Below are positions 4,138 to 33,535 of a DNA stretch of 64,000 bases, piece by piece (the first letter of the stretch is position 1; every line of letters begins with the position of its first letter). Under the pieces are notes generated by a model. That model saw only the letters and a list, made by a program, of their open reading frames with translations. It made no database searches and had not been told where the DNA came from. The translations under genes and the position numbers were made by a program. Origin of the DNA: Nitrosopumilus piranensis (GTDB lineage Archaea > Thermoproteota > Nitrososphaeria > Nitrososphaerales > Nitrosopumilaceae); assembly GCF_000875775.1 (NCBI RefSeq), contig NZ_CP010868.1, positions 558,001 to 622,000 on the forward strand, written 5' to 3'.

Positions 4138-6216
4138 ATGGCAACTGAAGCTATTGGTTTACCATTTGAAGCGACATCTGCTGCAGCATGGCTTGTTTGG
4201 ATTTTACCATTTGCTGCTGCACTCATCATGCCAGGTATTGGAAAATTCTCAAAACGAACAACAGGCTATGTTGCAGTTGGATTTGCATTAATGAGTGCAT
4301 TATCTGCAGCATCTTTGTTACCACTTGCAGTTGAAGGAAGTGAAATTCACAAACAGGTTATGTGGATTGAAGCAATCGGTTTGAAGGGCGGTGTATTAGC
4401 TGATCCACTTTCAGTAATTATGGCAAATGTTGTTGCTTGGATTTCATTCTTGATTATGATTTACAGTACTGGATATATGAAAGGTGATAAAGACATTACA
4501 AGATTCTGGTTCTGGATGATGTTCTTTATTGGTTCAATGCAATTAATTGTGTTATCTGATAACTTACTACAAGTCTTTTTTGGATGGGAAGGTGTGGGTC
4601 TCGCATCTTATGCATTAATCAGCTTCTGGTATCGTGATAAAAAGAAAGATCATGTTGGACAAGAAGGACGTACTGTTCTTGGTCTGCTAGATTACTATGC
4701 TCCAACTCATGCTGGTATGAAGGCATTCATCATGACCAAAGTTGGTGACGTGATGATGATTGCTGGTATGCTTTTGATATTCTTGTTCGCTGGAACATTT
4801 GGTTTCAAGGAACTGATGGGAGATCATGAATGGGCTATTGCTATGAATGCACAAGGTCTACTGGTCCCTGCCTTTGTATTGTTATTTGGTGGTGCAGTCG
4901 GTAAATCTGCACAATTCCCATTAAATGAATGGCTCTTAGAAGCAATGACTGGTCCAACTGCAGTTTCTGCATTGATTCACGCAGCAACAATGGTTAAAGC
5001 TGGTGTGTTCTTGGTTGCACGAATAGGACCTATTGTTTTTGCATTAGGTGCAGCAGGAATTATGGCTGATCAATTCTTTGAGATTGTTGCATGGGTTGGT
5101 GCAATTACTGCATTGTTACTTGCAACACAGGGTATGGTTAATCCTGAAATTAAGAAGGTTCTTGCATATTCAACTGGTTCACAAATTGGTTACATGATGA
5201 TGGCATTAGGTGTTGCAGGACTATCTCAGCAATACGTTGATGGTTATACTGCTGGATTTTTCCACTTAATTTCTCACGCAATGTTCAAGGCATCATTATT
5301 CATGGCAGCAGGTTCGTTGCTGCATATTGTTGGTTCTCGATTTATGACTGATATGGGTGGTCTGAGAAAACATATGAAAAAGACATATGCTTTCATGTGG
5401 GCTGCAGGTCTTGGTTTGATGGGAGCCCCATTTATCACAACAGGTTTCTGGAGTAAAGATGCAATCTTTGCAGCAGTCTATACATCAGGAAACGAATGGG
5501 CATTACCGCTATTTGCAATTGCAGTGTTGACTGCAATAATTACTGCATTCTATACTACAAGAATGATTGGTATGGTATTCTTTGGTAACAAGAGTAAACA
5601 TATCCAAAAAATGGAAGAAGAAGGACATCACATCCATGAAGCATCATTATCAATGTGGGCTCCATACGGAATCCTTGCAGTTTTAACTATTGGAATTGGA
5701 TTAATCGGATTATCCACAGAACACGGATTACATCATATGTTTGAAGTATATCTTGAAGATTCATTTGGAATCCACAGTGAATATGCAAAAACTGAATCCT
5801 CAATATTGCCAGAATTCCTGCAAGGAATCAACCCCGTAGCACTTGGTGCTTCACTTGTTGCATTTGCAATAGGAATTGGATTAGGATACATATTCTATAT
5901 TGGCAGATGGGTTGATCCTGTCAAATTTGTAAACTCTAACATTTTCTTTTACGCAATTCACAAAGTTATCTTAAGCAGATGGTATCTTAATGCAATAGTG
6001 TATTGGTGCTTTGTAGTAGCCCCATTATGGTTGGCAAGAGGTGTATTCAGATACTTTGAAAAGACAGCTATCGATTACGGTATGAACGATGGATTCCAGA
6101 AAGCAGTTGGATGGAGTGCTAAAGTCGTCCAAGGAACTCAAACTGGTGTTTCACAATCTTATCTATTCGTATTTGGAGCAGGATTACTATTTGTAGTTCT
6201 GATATTGTTGATATAG
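4138..6216 (+). CDS. nuoL: NADH-quinone oxidoreductase subunit L
   Basis: This is the distal antiporter-like pump subunit, 692 aa, with the extra C-terminal region that forms the lateral helix along the membrane arm. Motifs are VFFGWEGVGLASYALISFW (functional Glu), PLNEWLLEAMTGPTAVSALI and KKVLAYSTGSQIGYMM. His-rich loop sequence (EEGHHIHEASL) occurs near residue 497. It starts 1 bp after the nuoM stop. Together with nuoM and nuoN it supplies the three pump modules. Confidence 0.95.
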   Translation: MATEAIGLPFEATSAAAWLVWILPFAAALIMPGIGKFSKRTTGYVAVGFALMSALSAASLLPLAVEGSEIHKQVMWIEAIGLKGGVLADPLSVIMANVVAWISFLIMIYSTGYMKGDKDITRFWFWMMFFIGSMQLIVLSDNLLQVFFGWEGVGLASYALISFWYRDKKKDHVGQEGRTVLGLLDYYAPTHAGMKAFIMTKVGDVMMIAGMLLIFLFAGTFGFKELMGDHEWAIAMNAQGLLVPAFVLLFGGAVGKSAQFPLNEWLLEAMTGPTAVSALIHAATMVKAGVFLVARIGPIVFALGAAGIMADQFFEIVAWVGAITALLLATQGMVNPEIKKVLAYSTGSQIGYMMMALGVAGLSQQYVDGYTAGFFHLISHAMFKASLFMAAGSLLHIVGSRFMTDMGGLRKHMKKTYAFMWAAGLGLMGAPFITTGFWSKDAIFAAVYTSGNEWALPLFAIAVLTAIITAFYTTRMIGMVFFGNKSKHIQKMEEEGHHIHEASLSMWAPYGILAVLTIGIGLIGLSTEHGLHHMFEVYLEDSFGIHSEYAKTESSILPEFLQGINPVALGASLVAFAIGIGLGYIFYIGRWVDPVKFVNSNIFFYAIHKVILSRWYLNAIVYWCFVVAPLWLARGVFRYFEKTAIDYGMNDGFQKAVGWSAKVVQGTQTGVSQSYLFVFGAGLLFVVLILLI

Positions 6217-6228
6217 GAGAGACATGAA

Positions 6229-7713
6229 ATGTTAGAAATTACTTCAACTCCATTGGTATTAATTGCAATTTTAGGAACTGTAGGTGTTATTCTTCCTATA
6301 ATTAGTATTGCAAGAAAAGAGAAAGGCTCTAACTCATTTTATGCTGTAATTGCATTTGCAGCACTAATCGTGTCTATGGGATATGTTGGATATGAATTCA
6401 TTAACAATAGTGTAACTGCATCTGCGCTTTTCTCTGAGGATGTACTTGCTGATGATGCATTTGGTGGATTCTTTGCAATTGCAATGCTTATAGTTGCATT
6501 GTTCACAACAGTTGGCTCCTTTAACTATATGAGAAAACACAATTCTCCTGCTGTTTACTATTCTCTAATCTTACTTGCAACAATTGGTATGATTCTAGTT
6601 GCATACTCAACTGATCTTGTGATGCTGTTTGTTGCTTGGGAACTCATGAGTATTCCAACTTACATTTTAGTTGGATTCATGAAAAAGAACCCAAGTTCAA
6701 ATGAAGCAGCACTAAAGTATTTCCTGTTTGGTGCATTATCTTCAGCAATAATTGTTTACGGAATTGCATTATCTTATGGATTAACTGGTTCTACAAACAT
6801 TGGTGAAGTCATTGAAGGTTATTCGACACTTGATCCTTCACTTCTACCACTTGCATTACTTTCAGTTGGAATGTTTATCGCAGGATTTGGATTTAAGATG
6901 GGACTTGTTCCTTTCCATCAATGGCTTCCAGATACTTATGAGGGTGCACCTTCTCCAGTTACTGCTCTTCTTGCTGCAGCAACCAAAAAAGCAGGATTTG
7001 CTGCAACCATTAGAATTGTAATTCTTGGAATGGTTGTTCTTAATCTTGATTGGACTTTAGCACTTGGAATTATTGCAATAATGACAATGACAATTGGTAA
7101 TGTTGCAGCTATAATGCAAAAGAATCTTTCAAGAATGTTGGCATATTCTAGTATTGCACATGCAGGATACATTTTGATTGGATTGGCAGTTGCACCATAC
7201 AGTTCTCTTGGATTACAAGGTTCTTTGTATCAAATCTTTAATCATGCAGTGATGAAGGGTGCTGCCTTTATTGCAATTGCAGGAATTGTAACAACTCTTG
7301 CTGTTACTCATATTGATAAATTAAAAGGACTAGGAAGAAGAATGCCAATAACTGCCTTAGGTATGGTGATTTCCTTATTTGCACTTGCAGGCGTTCCTCC
7401 ACTTTCAGGATTTTGGAGTAAATTGATGCTATTTGGAAGTGCATTAGATGCAAGTTCTGCATTATGGTGGGCTCCTTGGCTTGCAATAGCAGGAGTTCTT
7501 AACAGTGCATTATCACTTGCTTACTATGGTTGGATAACTAGAAAGATGTACTTTGAAGGAGAAACAGAAAAGAGGGTTTCAGAACCAAAATCAATTGTTG
7601 CGGTAATGATATTCTCTATAATCTTCTTAGTAGGATTTGGTGTATATCCAGAACCACTTCTTAAATTTGTAGAATTTGCAACACCAATAGTTAGTTTAGG
7701 ACTTATGCCTTAA
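6229..7713 (+). CDS. nuoN: NADH-quinone oxidoreductase subunit N
   Basis: This is the third antiporter-like pump subunit, 494 aa and about 14 helices. Motifs are LFVAWELMSIPTYILVGF (TM5 Glu), LVPFHQWLPDTYEGAPSPVT and RMLAYSSIAHAGYILIG. It is the last gene of the nuo run, 12 bp behind nuoL with GGAGAG before the start. Its 3' end overlaps the convergent prenyl synthase gene by 11 bp. Confidence 0.95.
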   Translation: MLEITSTPLVLIAILGTVGVILPIISIARKEKGSNSFYAVIAFAALIVSMGYVGYEFINNSVTASALFSEDVLADDAFGGFFAIAMLIVALFTTVGSFNYMRKHNSPAVYYSLILLATIGMILVAYSTDLVMLFVAWELMSIPTYILVGFMKKNPSSNEAALKYFLFGALSSAIIVYGIALSYGLTGSTNIGEVIEGYSTLDPSLLPLALLSVGMFIAGFGFKMGLVPFHQWLPDTYEGAPSPVTALLAAATKKAGFAATIRIVILGMVVLNLDWTLALGIIAIMTMTIGNVAAIMQKNLSRMLAYSSIAHAGYILIGLAVAPYSSLGLQGSLYQIFNHAVMKGAAFIAIAGIVTTLAVTHIDKLKGLGRRMPITALGMVISLFALAGVPPLSGFWSKLMLFGSALDASSALWWAPWLAIAGVLNSALSLAYYGWITRKMYFEGETEKRVSEPKSIVAVMIFSIIFLVGFGVYPEPLLKFVEFATPIVSLGLMP

Positions 7714-28746: not shown

Positions 28747-29721
28747 GTGAATAGTTCAACAAAACCCATTTTAGTAATTTCTGTAATTGTTGCAGCTGCA
28801 GCAGGTTTGGCAGTTGGGTTTTCAATTAATGGTTTTTCAGAGGACAATTCAAGTAATGTTGTAACCAGTCAAAGTACTTCTGACGAAATCAAGAAAATTA
28901 CAATAGGAGTTATGCCAAATGAAGATCCTATGGTGTTTGAACTGCAATCTCAGATGCTAGAAGAATATTTCACAGAAAAACTTGGTATTGAAACAGAAGT
29001 TTTCTTTCCAACAGATGCAACCACAACTGTTGAATCAATTGTGACTGGTGATACACAAATTGCGTTTATGAGTGCACGACCAGCAGAGTTTGCCTATGAA
29101 AGAAGTGACGAAAAGACATTGTTGTTTATGGCCGAAGTTCGTCCCTTTAAAAGCGCTGGAGGCGAAAAACTAGACACGTTTTACTGGAGTGAATTTTGGG
29201 TAAAGAAGGATAGTGGCATCAACAAACTAGAAGATGCAAAAGGAAAGAACGTTGCATTTTCAGGTCCAACATCAACTAGTGGATATTTGTTCCCAATGTC
29301 AAAGCTTGTAGATAGGGGATTGATAAAATCAGGAGATGGGGCTGATACATTTTTCAGCAATGTTTTGTTTAGCGGTGGATACCAACAATCACTCAATGCA
29401 CTGATTGAAGGCCAAGTAGATATCGCAGCAGGAGGAGATCATGCCAAATATCGTTATCTTACACCTGAAGAACTAAGCCAGATCAAAGTCATAGAGAGAC
29501 AAGGACCTGTACCTACTCATGGAATTACATATCGTGCAGACCTGGTAAGTCCTGAGATTATTACAAAGTTTGAAAAAGCTATACTAGATATGAAGTCTGA
29601 AAGACCAGATCTGTTAGAAAAAGCATTATTTGGCGCTACAGACTTTACACCAGTTAATCATCATGCACACTTGGCAGCATTAGATAGTGCTCTTGCAAGT
29701 ACCCAGATACCAGCTATCTGA
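28747..29721 (+). CDS. phnD: PhnD-type phosphonate/phosphite substrate-binding protein
   Basis: 324 aa with an N-terminal anchor helix (VISVIVAAAAGLAVGF) and a periplasmic-binding-protein type II fold. KKITIGVMPNEDP, the FSGPTSTSGYLFP ligand loop and QVDIAAGGD are typical of PhnD/PtxB. It starts at GTG 28747. No phnC or phnE is adjacent, so it must share a transporter or sense its ligand. The upstream palindrome and divergent regulator form a likely control unit. Confidence 0.88.
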   Translation: MNSSTKPILVISVIVAAAAGLAVGFSINGFSEDNSSNVVTSQSTSDEIKKITIGVMPNEDPMVFELQSQMLEEYFTEKLGIETEVFFPTDATTTVESIVTGDTQIAFMSARPAEFAYERSDEKTLLFMAEVRPFKSAGGEKLDTFYWSEFWVKKDSGINKLEDAKGKNVAFSGPTSTSGYLFPMSKLVDRGLIKSGDGADTFFSNVLFSGGYQQSLNALIEGQVDIAAGGDHAKYRYLTPEELSQIKVIERQGPVPTHGITYRADLVSPEIITKFEKAILDMKSERPDLLEKALFGATDFTPVNHHAHLAALDSALASTQIPAI

Positions 29722-32379: not shown

Positions 32380-32691
32380 TTATCCTCTTCCCATTGCAGC
32401 ATATTTTCCCTTGCGACCCCTTACAAAAAAGGCAGTGGCAATTCCGCCAAACACGCCTGTAGACAGTATAAGAGCACCAAGCACTCCGTCTGCTGCAAAC
32501 ATTGGAGTCCCAGAACCTGTACTGGGGTTCTCATTTGCAATTCTTACTCTGTCTTCTGAAAGCTTGATGTAATCTTCAAGTCCAGTATTTGCAGAAGATG
32601 GCAGGTATTGTGCAAATGCAAGGCTGCTAACAGAAGGCAATATCAAAACACTTAACATCACTCCTGTCATGATTATCTTTTTTCCACTCAT
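32380..32691 (-). CDS. Small exported protein with C-terminal membrane helix
   Basis: 103 aa: signal-like helix (GVMLSVLILPSVSSLAFA), an acidic spacer (LEDYIKLSEDRVRIANEN), the motif NPSTGSGTP, then a second hydrophobic segment (VLGALILSTGVFGGIATA) and a basic tail (RGRKGKYAAMGRG). The spacer, motif and helix resemble the end of the divergent regulator 32783-33535. The two-ended hydrophobic layout is like sorted surface proteins. No named family. Confidence 0.65.
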   Translation of the reverse strand: MSGKKIIMTGVMLSVLILPSVSSLAFAQYLPSSANTGLEDYIKLSEDRVRIANENPSTGSGTPMFAADGVLGALILSTGVFGGIATAFFVRGRKGKYAAMGRG

Positions 32692-32782
32692 TGAATTACT
32701 TAGGTGATTTTTGCATAAAGGGTTTGATGAAATTTTTGTTTTACTAATCCTTACATACTATAATGTCCTATATTATACACCT

Positions 32783-33535
32783 ATGAGCAATGAGACTTCA
32801 AAACCTGTAGATGCTGTAAATATTTTCTCATTAGATGATGAAAAAATGAAAATTCTAGCCAAAGTAATTTCAAACAAGTCAAGCATTTCTATTTTGAATT
32901 TGTTATTTGATGATGAACTAACTGCAAATGAGATTGCTCAAAAAACAAACATGTCATTGCAACTAGTTAAACACTATCTAGAAAAAATGCAACAAATTGA
33001 GCTTGTATGTGTATCAAAAACTGAGAAAAACTCAAAGGCACGTGACATGAACTACTACAAGGCATCAAAGCTTGCAATTGTAATTACTCCTTCAAAAATT
33101 ACAGAGAAAACAAAACAAAGCAAACTACTGTTGCGTTCTTTTCATTCAATATCCAAAGTATTTGGAATGGGAGTTGCCTCTGCAATAACTGCAATGTCTG
33201 TAATTGTAATGTCTGCTGAAAGTAGACTATTAGAGCCAATACAGAGCTGGTACTCTCAGTTTAGTTTGCCTATCAAAATCCCTGGAACTGGCCTTGCAAA
33301 CTCTATGGATGAATCGCTTTACTTGGCAAAGACAAAGGTAGATTCAGTGGTGTCAAACCCTGGAGCAGGCTCTGGAACTCCGTATCTGGATCCTTACACT
33401 GGCGTTTCAGGATTGGCAGGAACTGATTTTGTAATCATGTTATCTGTACTTGCAGGTGCGGGAGCAGTATTGTCATTTGTATTTTTTAATAACGTGATTC
33501 AATCATTTCAGAAACCAGATGAATCTGTCAATTGA
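32783..33535 (+). CDS. Membrane-anchored winged-helix regulator
   Basis: 250 aa. The N-terminal ArsR-type winged helix (about residues 15-85; LTANEIAQKTNMSLQLVKHY as recognition helix) is cytoplasmic. A first membrane helix (MGVASAITAMSVIVM) leads to an outer domain of about 60 residues with ESLYLAKTKVDSVVSNP and GAGSGTPYLDP, then a second helix (FVIMLSVLAGAGAVLSFVFF). The frame is open to 32711, but ATG 32783 follows a TATA-like TATTATACAC. It is likely a one-component signal regulator, paired with the divergent gene. Confidence 0.75.
   Translation: MSNETSKPVDAVNIFSLDDEKMKILAKVISNKSSISILNLLFDDELTANEIAQKTNMSLQLVKHYLEKMQQIELVCVSKTEKNSKARDMNYYKASKLAIVITPSKITEKTKQSKLLLRSFHSISKVFGMGVASAITAMSVIVMSAESRLLEPIQSWYSQFSLPIKIPGTGLANSMDESLYLAKTKVDSVVSNPGAGSGTPYLDPYTGVSGLAGTDFVIMLSVLAGAGAVLSFVFFNNVIQSFQKPDESVN

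Follow-up and report, generated by a model that had tools for sequence, protein, structure and literature searches.

The window, that is, the whole 64,000-nucleotide stretch of DNA from the ammonia-oxidizing archaeon (AOA) Nitrosopumilus piranensis analysed here (positions 558,001 to 622,000 of a genome that forms one contig of 1,713,078 bp), contains two divergent genes, one for a small exported protein and one for a membrane-bound regulator. Both lie where the initial annotation had located them, head-to-head and separated by 91 bp when the regulator is read from the ATG at 32783. Judged by sequence comparison, this start is the best placed and a TTG at 32711 is disfavoured, because orthologs begin at the same ATG and the DNA upstream, including the TTG, is conserved as intergenic DNA. 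The small protein is named AmoZ2 here, after the ammonia monooxygenase (AMO) subunit AmoZ. The features of the locus, in window coordinates, are:

32380..32691, minus strand: amoZ2, small exported protein of 103 aa, by homology and AmoZ-family alignment an AmoZ paralog
32419..32490, minus strand: AmoZ2 membrane helix, then the conserved GRKGKYAAMGRG end, approximately residues 68-91 (hydrophobicity by eye; alignment)
32503..32586, minus strand: outer helix of AmoZ2 with NPSTGSGTP, the region that the regulator has in common with it, residues 36-63 (alignment, hhalign, BLASTP)
32608..32691, minus strand: AmoZ2 signal-peptide-like or first hydrophobic segment, residues 1-28 (by sequence; a low-confidence model has a helix at 3-27)
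32713..32720, minus strand: TATA-like box of amoZ2, CTTTATGC on the minus strand, 22-29 nt before the start codon (conserved in the intergenic alignment)
32723..32748, no strand: operator-like dyad TTTGATGAAATTTTTGTTTTACTAAT, a degenerate TTTGATGAAA-N6-TTTCATCAAA (conserved over four genera)
32750..32757, plus strand: TATA-like box of the regulator, CTTACATA, 26-33 nt before the ATG (conserved in the intergenic alignment)
32783..33535, plus strand: membrane-bound regulator of 250 aa (orthologs begin at the same ATG)
32837..33064, plus strand: winged helix-turn-helix, ArsR-like, residues 19-94 (Pfam HTH_24; model; Foldseek)
33152..33214, plus strand: TM1, approximately residues 124-144 (by sequence; the model has a low-confidence helix at 113-144)
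33299..33400, plus strand: AmoZ-like ectodomain, helix and NPGAGSGTPYLD, residues 173-206 (hhalign; AmoZ profile)
33428..33502, plus strand: TM2, approximately residues 216-240 (alignment to the membrane helix of AmoZ; model)

Elsewhere in the window, an exported protein encoded at 28747-29721 (plus strand) resembles, by eye, a PhnD-type phosphonate-binding protein.

Domain architecture and the AmoZ-like module

The regulator is ordered as an ArsR-fold winged HTH (wHTH), TM1, an AmoZ-like ectodomain and TM2, with the ectodomain spanning approximately residues 146-214 between the two membrane helices. The N-terminal HTH and two membrane helices agree with its initial assignment to the membrane-bound one-component regulators. 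The "outer tail" described at that stage does correspond to an outer AmoZ-like region, but this is an ectodomain enclosed by two membrane helices and not the extreme C-terminus. The wHTH lies above the cut-off for Pfam HTH_24 and just below that for HTH_5 (ArsR). Residues 21-80 of the predicted model have a pLDDT of 70-90, and Foldseek matches the wHTH to NolR, CzrA, SmtB and a Pyrococcus horikoshii ArsR homolog (E 1e-5 to 1e-3); the predicted fold is of the ArsR/SmtB type. ArsR-type proteins are a class of dimeric palindrome binders. AlphaFold modelling of AmoZ2 and the regulator is reliable for the wHTH only; since the ectodomain and transmembrane parts are modelled unreliably, the relation of the ectodomain to AmoZ is claimed from sequence and not from structure. 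PDB sequence searches with AmoZ and with the regulator returned no relatives.

AmoZ2 has a signal-peptide-like start, an outer helix, GSGT and a single C-terminal membrane helix, according to alignment, sequence and a low-confidence model. Its closest relative within the N. piranensis genome sits in the amo cluster: the two proteins share 50% identity (E=8e-24) and their homology spans the whole length. The cluster is ordered amoA, amoX, amoC, amoB, two genes, amoY, amoZ, where AmoB was called by NCBIfam and the remaining genes by eye and gene order. This order agrees with the assignment in N. maritimus of amoY to Nmar_1506 and amoZ to Nmar_1507, as published (PMC10030591). There, AmoZ has been proposed as a small one-TM subunit of AMO from native gels, synteny and cross-linking, so that the assignment has native gels and cross-links rather than a solved structure as its basis (PMC10030591, Hodgskiss et al. 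2023). Adjacency of AmoY and AmoZ is also present at three distant AOA loci (L084, L085 and L089). The gene studied here lies at 590 kb, away from amoYZ (1,694 kb) and not beside amoY, and is therefore classed as a paralog and not as an amoZ ortholog. With the small protein identified as an AmoZ paralog, the origin of the shared module is known and ammonia monooxygenase is the enzyme to which the pair relates.

The initial annotation had noted that the outer part of the regulator resembles the small protein. A pairwise BLASTP comparison of the two is marginal (E=0.003 over 28 residues), so the claim of homology stands on profiles and on many genomes. An hhalign comparison of six regulator orthologs with seventeen AmoZ-type proteins bears the similarity out, with a probability of 94.6% and E=7.3e-8 over 58 columns; the aligned region takes in the helix, the GSGTP loop and the membrane helix after the loop, which is TM2 in the regulator. 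Moreover, when an AmoZ-type profile built without any regulator was searched against 95 whole genomes from the genus, 83 of them gave matches. The profile catches the tails of all 13 orthologous regulators (E 6e-7 to 5e-5; 1.4e-5 in the window's own genome) and has few matches other than AmoZ-type proteins and regulator tails. Chance similarity is ruled out by the profile matches and hhalign, and the regulator ectodomain is, at the level of sequence, homologous to AmoZ.

GSGT is common to all AmoZ-type proteins aligned, across all AOA families in the alignment. AmoZ2 departs from AmoZ around this motif, with GSGTPMFA in place of the canonical GSGTPYLD; the loop of the regulator is itself GSGTPYLD. 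A cleavage role for NPxxGSGTP is unsupported, since GSGT is conserved as an AmoZ motif throughout the aligned AOA lineages. Codon comparisons indicate that both proteins are under purifying selection. Median dN/dS values, which are rough as synonymous sites are strongly diverged, are approximately 0.13 for the regulator (wHTH 0.09, ectodomain 0.11, TM2 0.25) and 0.14 for AmoZ2 (0.07 for its membrane helix and end).

Linkage, probable repeated origin and related regulators

A full-length regulator is present in 13 of the 95 genomes of the genus, and AmoZ2 lies head-to-head approximately 92 bp away in each of the 13, although in G082 this partner is frame-broken. The amo-cluster-type AmoZ was also found in 12 of these genomes; it was not found in G104. 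AmoZ2-type genes occur in a minority of species. Pairs of a regulator and an AmoZ-like gene recur in five other genera of the family; genus g35 has a diverged set in 12 genomes. Neither of the results that the initial annotation had named as refuting it, dissimilar tails in an HMM comparison or unlinked genes in relatives, was obtained. Overall, 30 of 31 distinct AmoZ-tailed regulators, from six genera, have an AmoZ-like gene within approximately 100 bp, and the lone exception ends 48 bp from a contig end. Among regulators lacking the AmoZ tail, an AmoZ-like neighbour occurs in 2 of 71, both artefacts (one truncated copy and one copy with a frameshifted AmoZ tail). The association of tail and neighbour has a Fisher p of 2.5e-22, with kinship ignored.

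In a tree of the wHTH only, the AmoZ-tailed regulators of loci L280 and L307 stand next to the B-type paralogs and outside the main groups, and the AmoZ-tail label requires at least two changes. In a tree of the AmoZ module, which has few columns and weak support in places, the tails of L280, L307 and L179 are grouped within the canonical AmoZ clade, separated from the window-type tails. The layout at L280 and L307 comprises the same two partners, with the AmoZ-like gene downstream of the regulator and co-directional with it. From these trees, at least two captures of AmoZ by one regulator family are likely, the alternative being that the tail was lost in the B type instead of gained a second time. 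One 95%-complete genome (G214, locus L277) yielded no AmoZ other than the AmoZ-like gene linked to the regulator; the notion of a "spare" AmoZ may therefore not apply everywhere.

Several further AmoZ-type sequences were encountered. G082 has a second locus (L179:1853-4897) with a decayed AmoZ-tailed regulator and an AmoZ-like gene, as well as a 603-aa protein in which an AmoZ-like ectodomain appears, by eye, to be joined to a von-Willebrand-A-like domain. A third AmoZ-type paralog of 99 aa (L069:3934-5418, minus strand; also L071, L080 and L081) is encoded immediately upstream of two genes for soluble HTH-like proteins, in species without the window's pair. In N. piranensis itself, a 3' remnant of amoZ2 (L064:11960-12030, minus strand; G000:C1 ~669460-669530) adjoins a short HTH gene.

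The regulator belongs to a family of approximately 100 membrane-bound paralogs collected in this analysis. One member, at L076 in G013 (4687-5307, plus strand), carries a near-exact AmoA loop FKYPRPTLPPYMTPIEPQ (E=8.7e-12), and a second member or remnant of the family in G104 (L171:1908-2339, minus strand) carries FKYPRPTLPPYMTPIEPQ or a near form after an in-frame stop; both loops stand between membrane helices. C-type regulators carry NTGSVSLDRTVYPxPF, a motif also present in an ORF of approximately 1,700 aa in many genomes, possibly an S-layer protein. The occurrence of DRTVYPxPF in many other exported proteins weakens the idea of an S-layer mimic, and the wider pattern is suggestive only. 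At locus L074 of G013, a C-type regulator (4215-5069, minus strand) and a divergent 759-aa exported partner (5200-7479, plus strand) have NTGSVSLDRTVYPxxF in common; TTTGATGAAATT stands between the two genes, and an AmoA-like stretch, SSFKYPRPTLPPFMEPV, is present in the partner as well. B-type paralogs, examined by eye, were not seen to mirror their divergent partner, an exported protein of approximately 740 aa. There is also a family of proteins of approximately 113-128 aa in which hydrophobic stretches flank an AmoA-like loop, PPYMTPIEPQVGKF (L241:3005-3346, minus; L240:2697-3080, plus; L239:3113-3490, minus; L238:2012-2398, minus).

Intergenic DNA and candidate operator

An alignment of 17 intergenic sequences reveals striking conservation over four genera, in the form GCATAAAG..TTTGATGAAATTNTTNTTTYACTAAT..CTTACATA. 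In genus g35 the same place is occupied by a perfect palindrome, TTTGATGAAA-N6-TTTCATCAAA, and the 10-6-10 design is found as well in B-type and other paralogs, for example TTTAGTGAAA-N6-TTTCACCAAA. The window's own genus has an imperfect dyad, with 7 of 10 pairs, and the single-locus dyads of this genus are not above dinucleotide shuffles; the case for an operator therefore rests on conservation and on the perfect g35 form. Located between two TATA-like boxes, each approximately 22-33 nt before a start codon, the dyad abuts both promoters. At L280 and L307, it is the promoter of the AmoZ-like gene itself that contains a copy of the palindrome, and this marks the gene as a target.

With up to 3 mismatches allowed, the operator-like site occurs once in the window's genome and none is found near the amo genes; in genomes without the pair, the search gives only 3-mismatch background matches. 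This single occurrence, and the background level where the pair is absent, suggest that the regulon is probably local. It is most likely, on the evidence of these sites, that amoZ2 is the target of the regulator rather than primarily its ligand; the roles of ligand, inhibitor or competing subunit put forward in the initial annotation may also apply. The earlier interpretation of the locus, correct as to the shared homologous module, the linkage and the regulator class, had missed both this role of target and the origin of the module in AmoZ and AMO.

Proposed mechanism and comparison with known systems

We propose, with a rough probability of 0.5, that the pair works as a one-component switch governing a spare subunit of AMO. 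With its winged HTH in the cytoplasm, the regulator would be anchored by its two helices, and a dimer would bind the 10-6-10 palindrome lying between two divergent promoters, that of amoZ2 and that of the regulator gene. Its outer part (helix, GSGTP loop and membrane helix), being homologous to AmoZ, could dock where AmoZ docks, and would bind either AMO, as AmoZ does, or AmoZ-type proteins themselves. The signal could be the filling of the AmoZ site on AMO or the amount of AmoZ-type protein; it would cross the membrane to the HTH, which would set the expression of amoZ2. The most likely form is a feedback or assembly sensor, in which empty or altered AmoZ sites would capture the regulator and turn amoZ2 on. 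The switch is supported by the AmoZ-like ectodomain, the paralogy of amoZ2 with the amo-cluster amoZ and the contrast in linkage (30/31 against 2/71), together with the separate grouping of the L280 and L307 tails, the low dN/dS, the ArsR-like fold and the local operator.

Strict one-to-one linkage, a module common to both proteins and a local operator would equally be expected if AmoZ2 were itself the ligand, forming hetero-oligomers with the regulator through the shared helix and TM module in a closed autoregulatory loop without AMO, where free AmoZ2 would inhibit or activate the regulator. This reading, close to that of the initial annotation, is rather doubtful: AmoZ2 has lost none of the features of AmoZ, the C-terminal GKYAAMGRG among them, as if still fitting AMO, and the loop of the window's regulator is closer to canonical AmoZ than to AmoZ2. 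The ectodomains of the regulator family vary widely and many are acidic and of low complexity, as they might be if the AmoZ-like part were a mere membrane anchor or a chance fusion and the real signal were cytoplasmic or the membrane itself. However, the ectodomain motif is invariant among orthologs of the window's regulator, the ectodomain is more constrained than TM2 (dN/dS approximately 0.11 against 0.25) and a regulator with an AmoZ tail nearly always has an AmoZ-like gene for a neighbour, a pattern seen in more than one lineage; all of this makes a passive role improbable.

The display by related regulators of pieces of other exported proteins (the AmoA loop at L076; DRTVYPxPF) could also point to a decoy or damage sensor, a bait copy of an abundant membrane protein attacked by a protease, toxin or virus. 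An attack on AMO would then strike the bait too, and the response would be a variant AmoZ, in keeping with the divergence of AmoZ2 from AmoZ around GSGTP. Such a role seems very unlikely, given that the displayed motifs occur in other exported proteins as well, that the AmoZ module is conserved and not fast-evolving, and that no attacker is known from the data here.

Returning to the switch for a spare subunit, a tentative generalization, to which we give somewhat less than even odds, is that a family of archaeal membrane regulators senses the state of AMO via relatives of AMO subunits and so switches a variant subunit. If true, this AMO-subunit-sensor family (AmoZ, with the AmoA loop in few members) would be the first regulatory circuit wired to archaeal AMO. 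To our knowledge, the regulator is the first candidate wired to AMO, a globally important enzyme. We know of no earlier AMO-subunit-like sensor; membrane-bound one-component regulators as a class are already known. The searched portion of the open-access AmoZ literature holds no mention that we found of a second AmoZ gene or of an AmoZ-like or AMO-dedicated regulator. The pair supplies candidates for both the operator and the target, as well as a sensor whose homolog is known, and makes it testable whether archaeal AMO varies its subunit composition and whether the cell senses AMO at the membrane. It looks like a sensor made by copying the type of protein that is regulated.

AmoZ and AmoZ2 are homologous and both are small and exported, with one C-terminal membrane helix, GSGT and the same C-terminal end, whereas AmoZ2, which a minority of species possess, lies outside the amo cluster and has a regulator as its partner. 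The regulator ectodomain is AmoZ-like, but is fused to a wHTH and is without the GKYAAMGRG end. The ArsR/SmtB-fold regulators found by Foldseek are soluble, in contrast to the membrane-anchored regulator, which scores below the curated cut-offs of ArsR family models. ArnR and ArnR1 of Sulfolobus are likewise archaeal one-component regulators with an N-terminal HTH and two membrane helices. In ArnR, however, a HAMP-like and sensing domain precedes two adjacent C-terminal membrane helices (PMC6396743), while the present regulator has its AmoZ-like sensor between the two helices. A Pfam scan revealed no HAMP domain in it, and its sole extra domain is the one between the membrane helices; by its domain content, it shares the ArnR format and is not an ArnR member.

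In the Staphylococcus BlaR1 system, the controlled gene is adjacent and divergent. The logic is the same, in that the outer sensor is homologous to the type of protein controlled: the outer domain of BlaR1 is homologous to the class of enzyme whose expression it induces (PMC5957439). BlaR1 works via a metalloprotease domain and a separate repressor, BlaI (PMC5957439), whereas Pfam and NCBIfam scans found no metalloprotease domain in the regulator, whose predicted DNA binding resides in the same chain. Unlike that of BlaR1, its sensor module would derive from a subunit of a respiratory enzyme. The regulator thus appears BlaR1-like in logic without being a member of that family, control of amoZ2 itself being suggested by the operator-like site.
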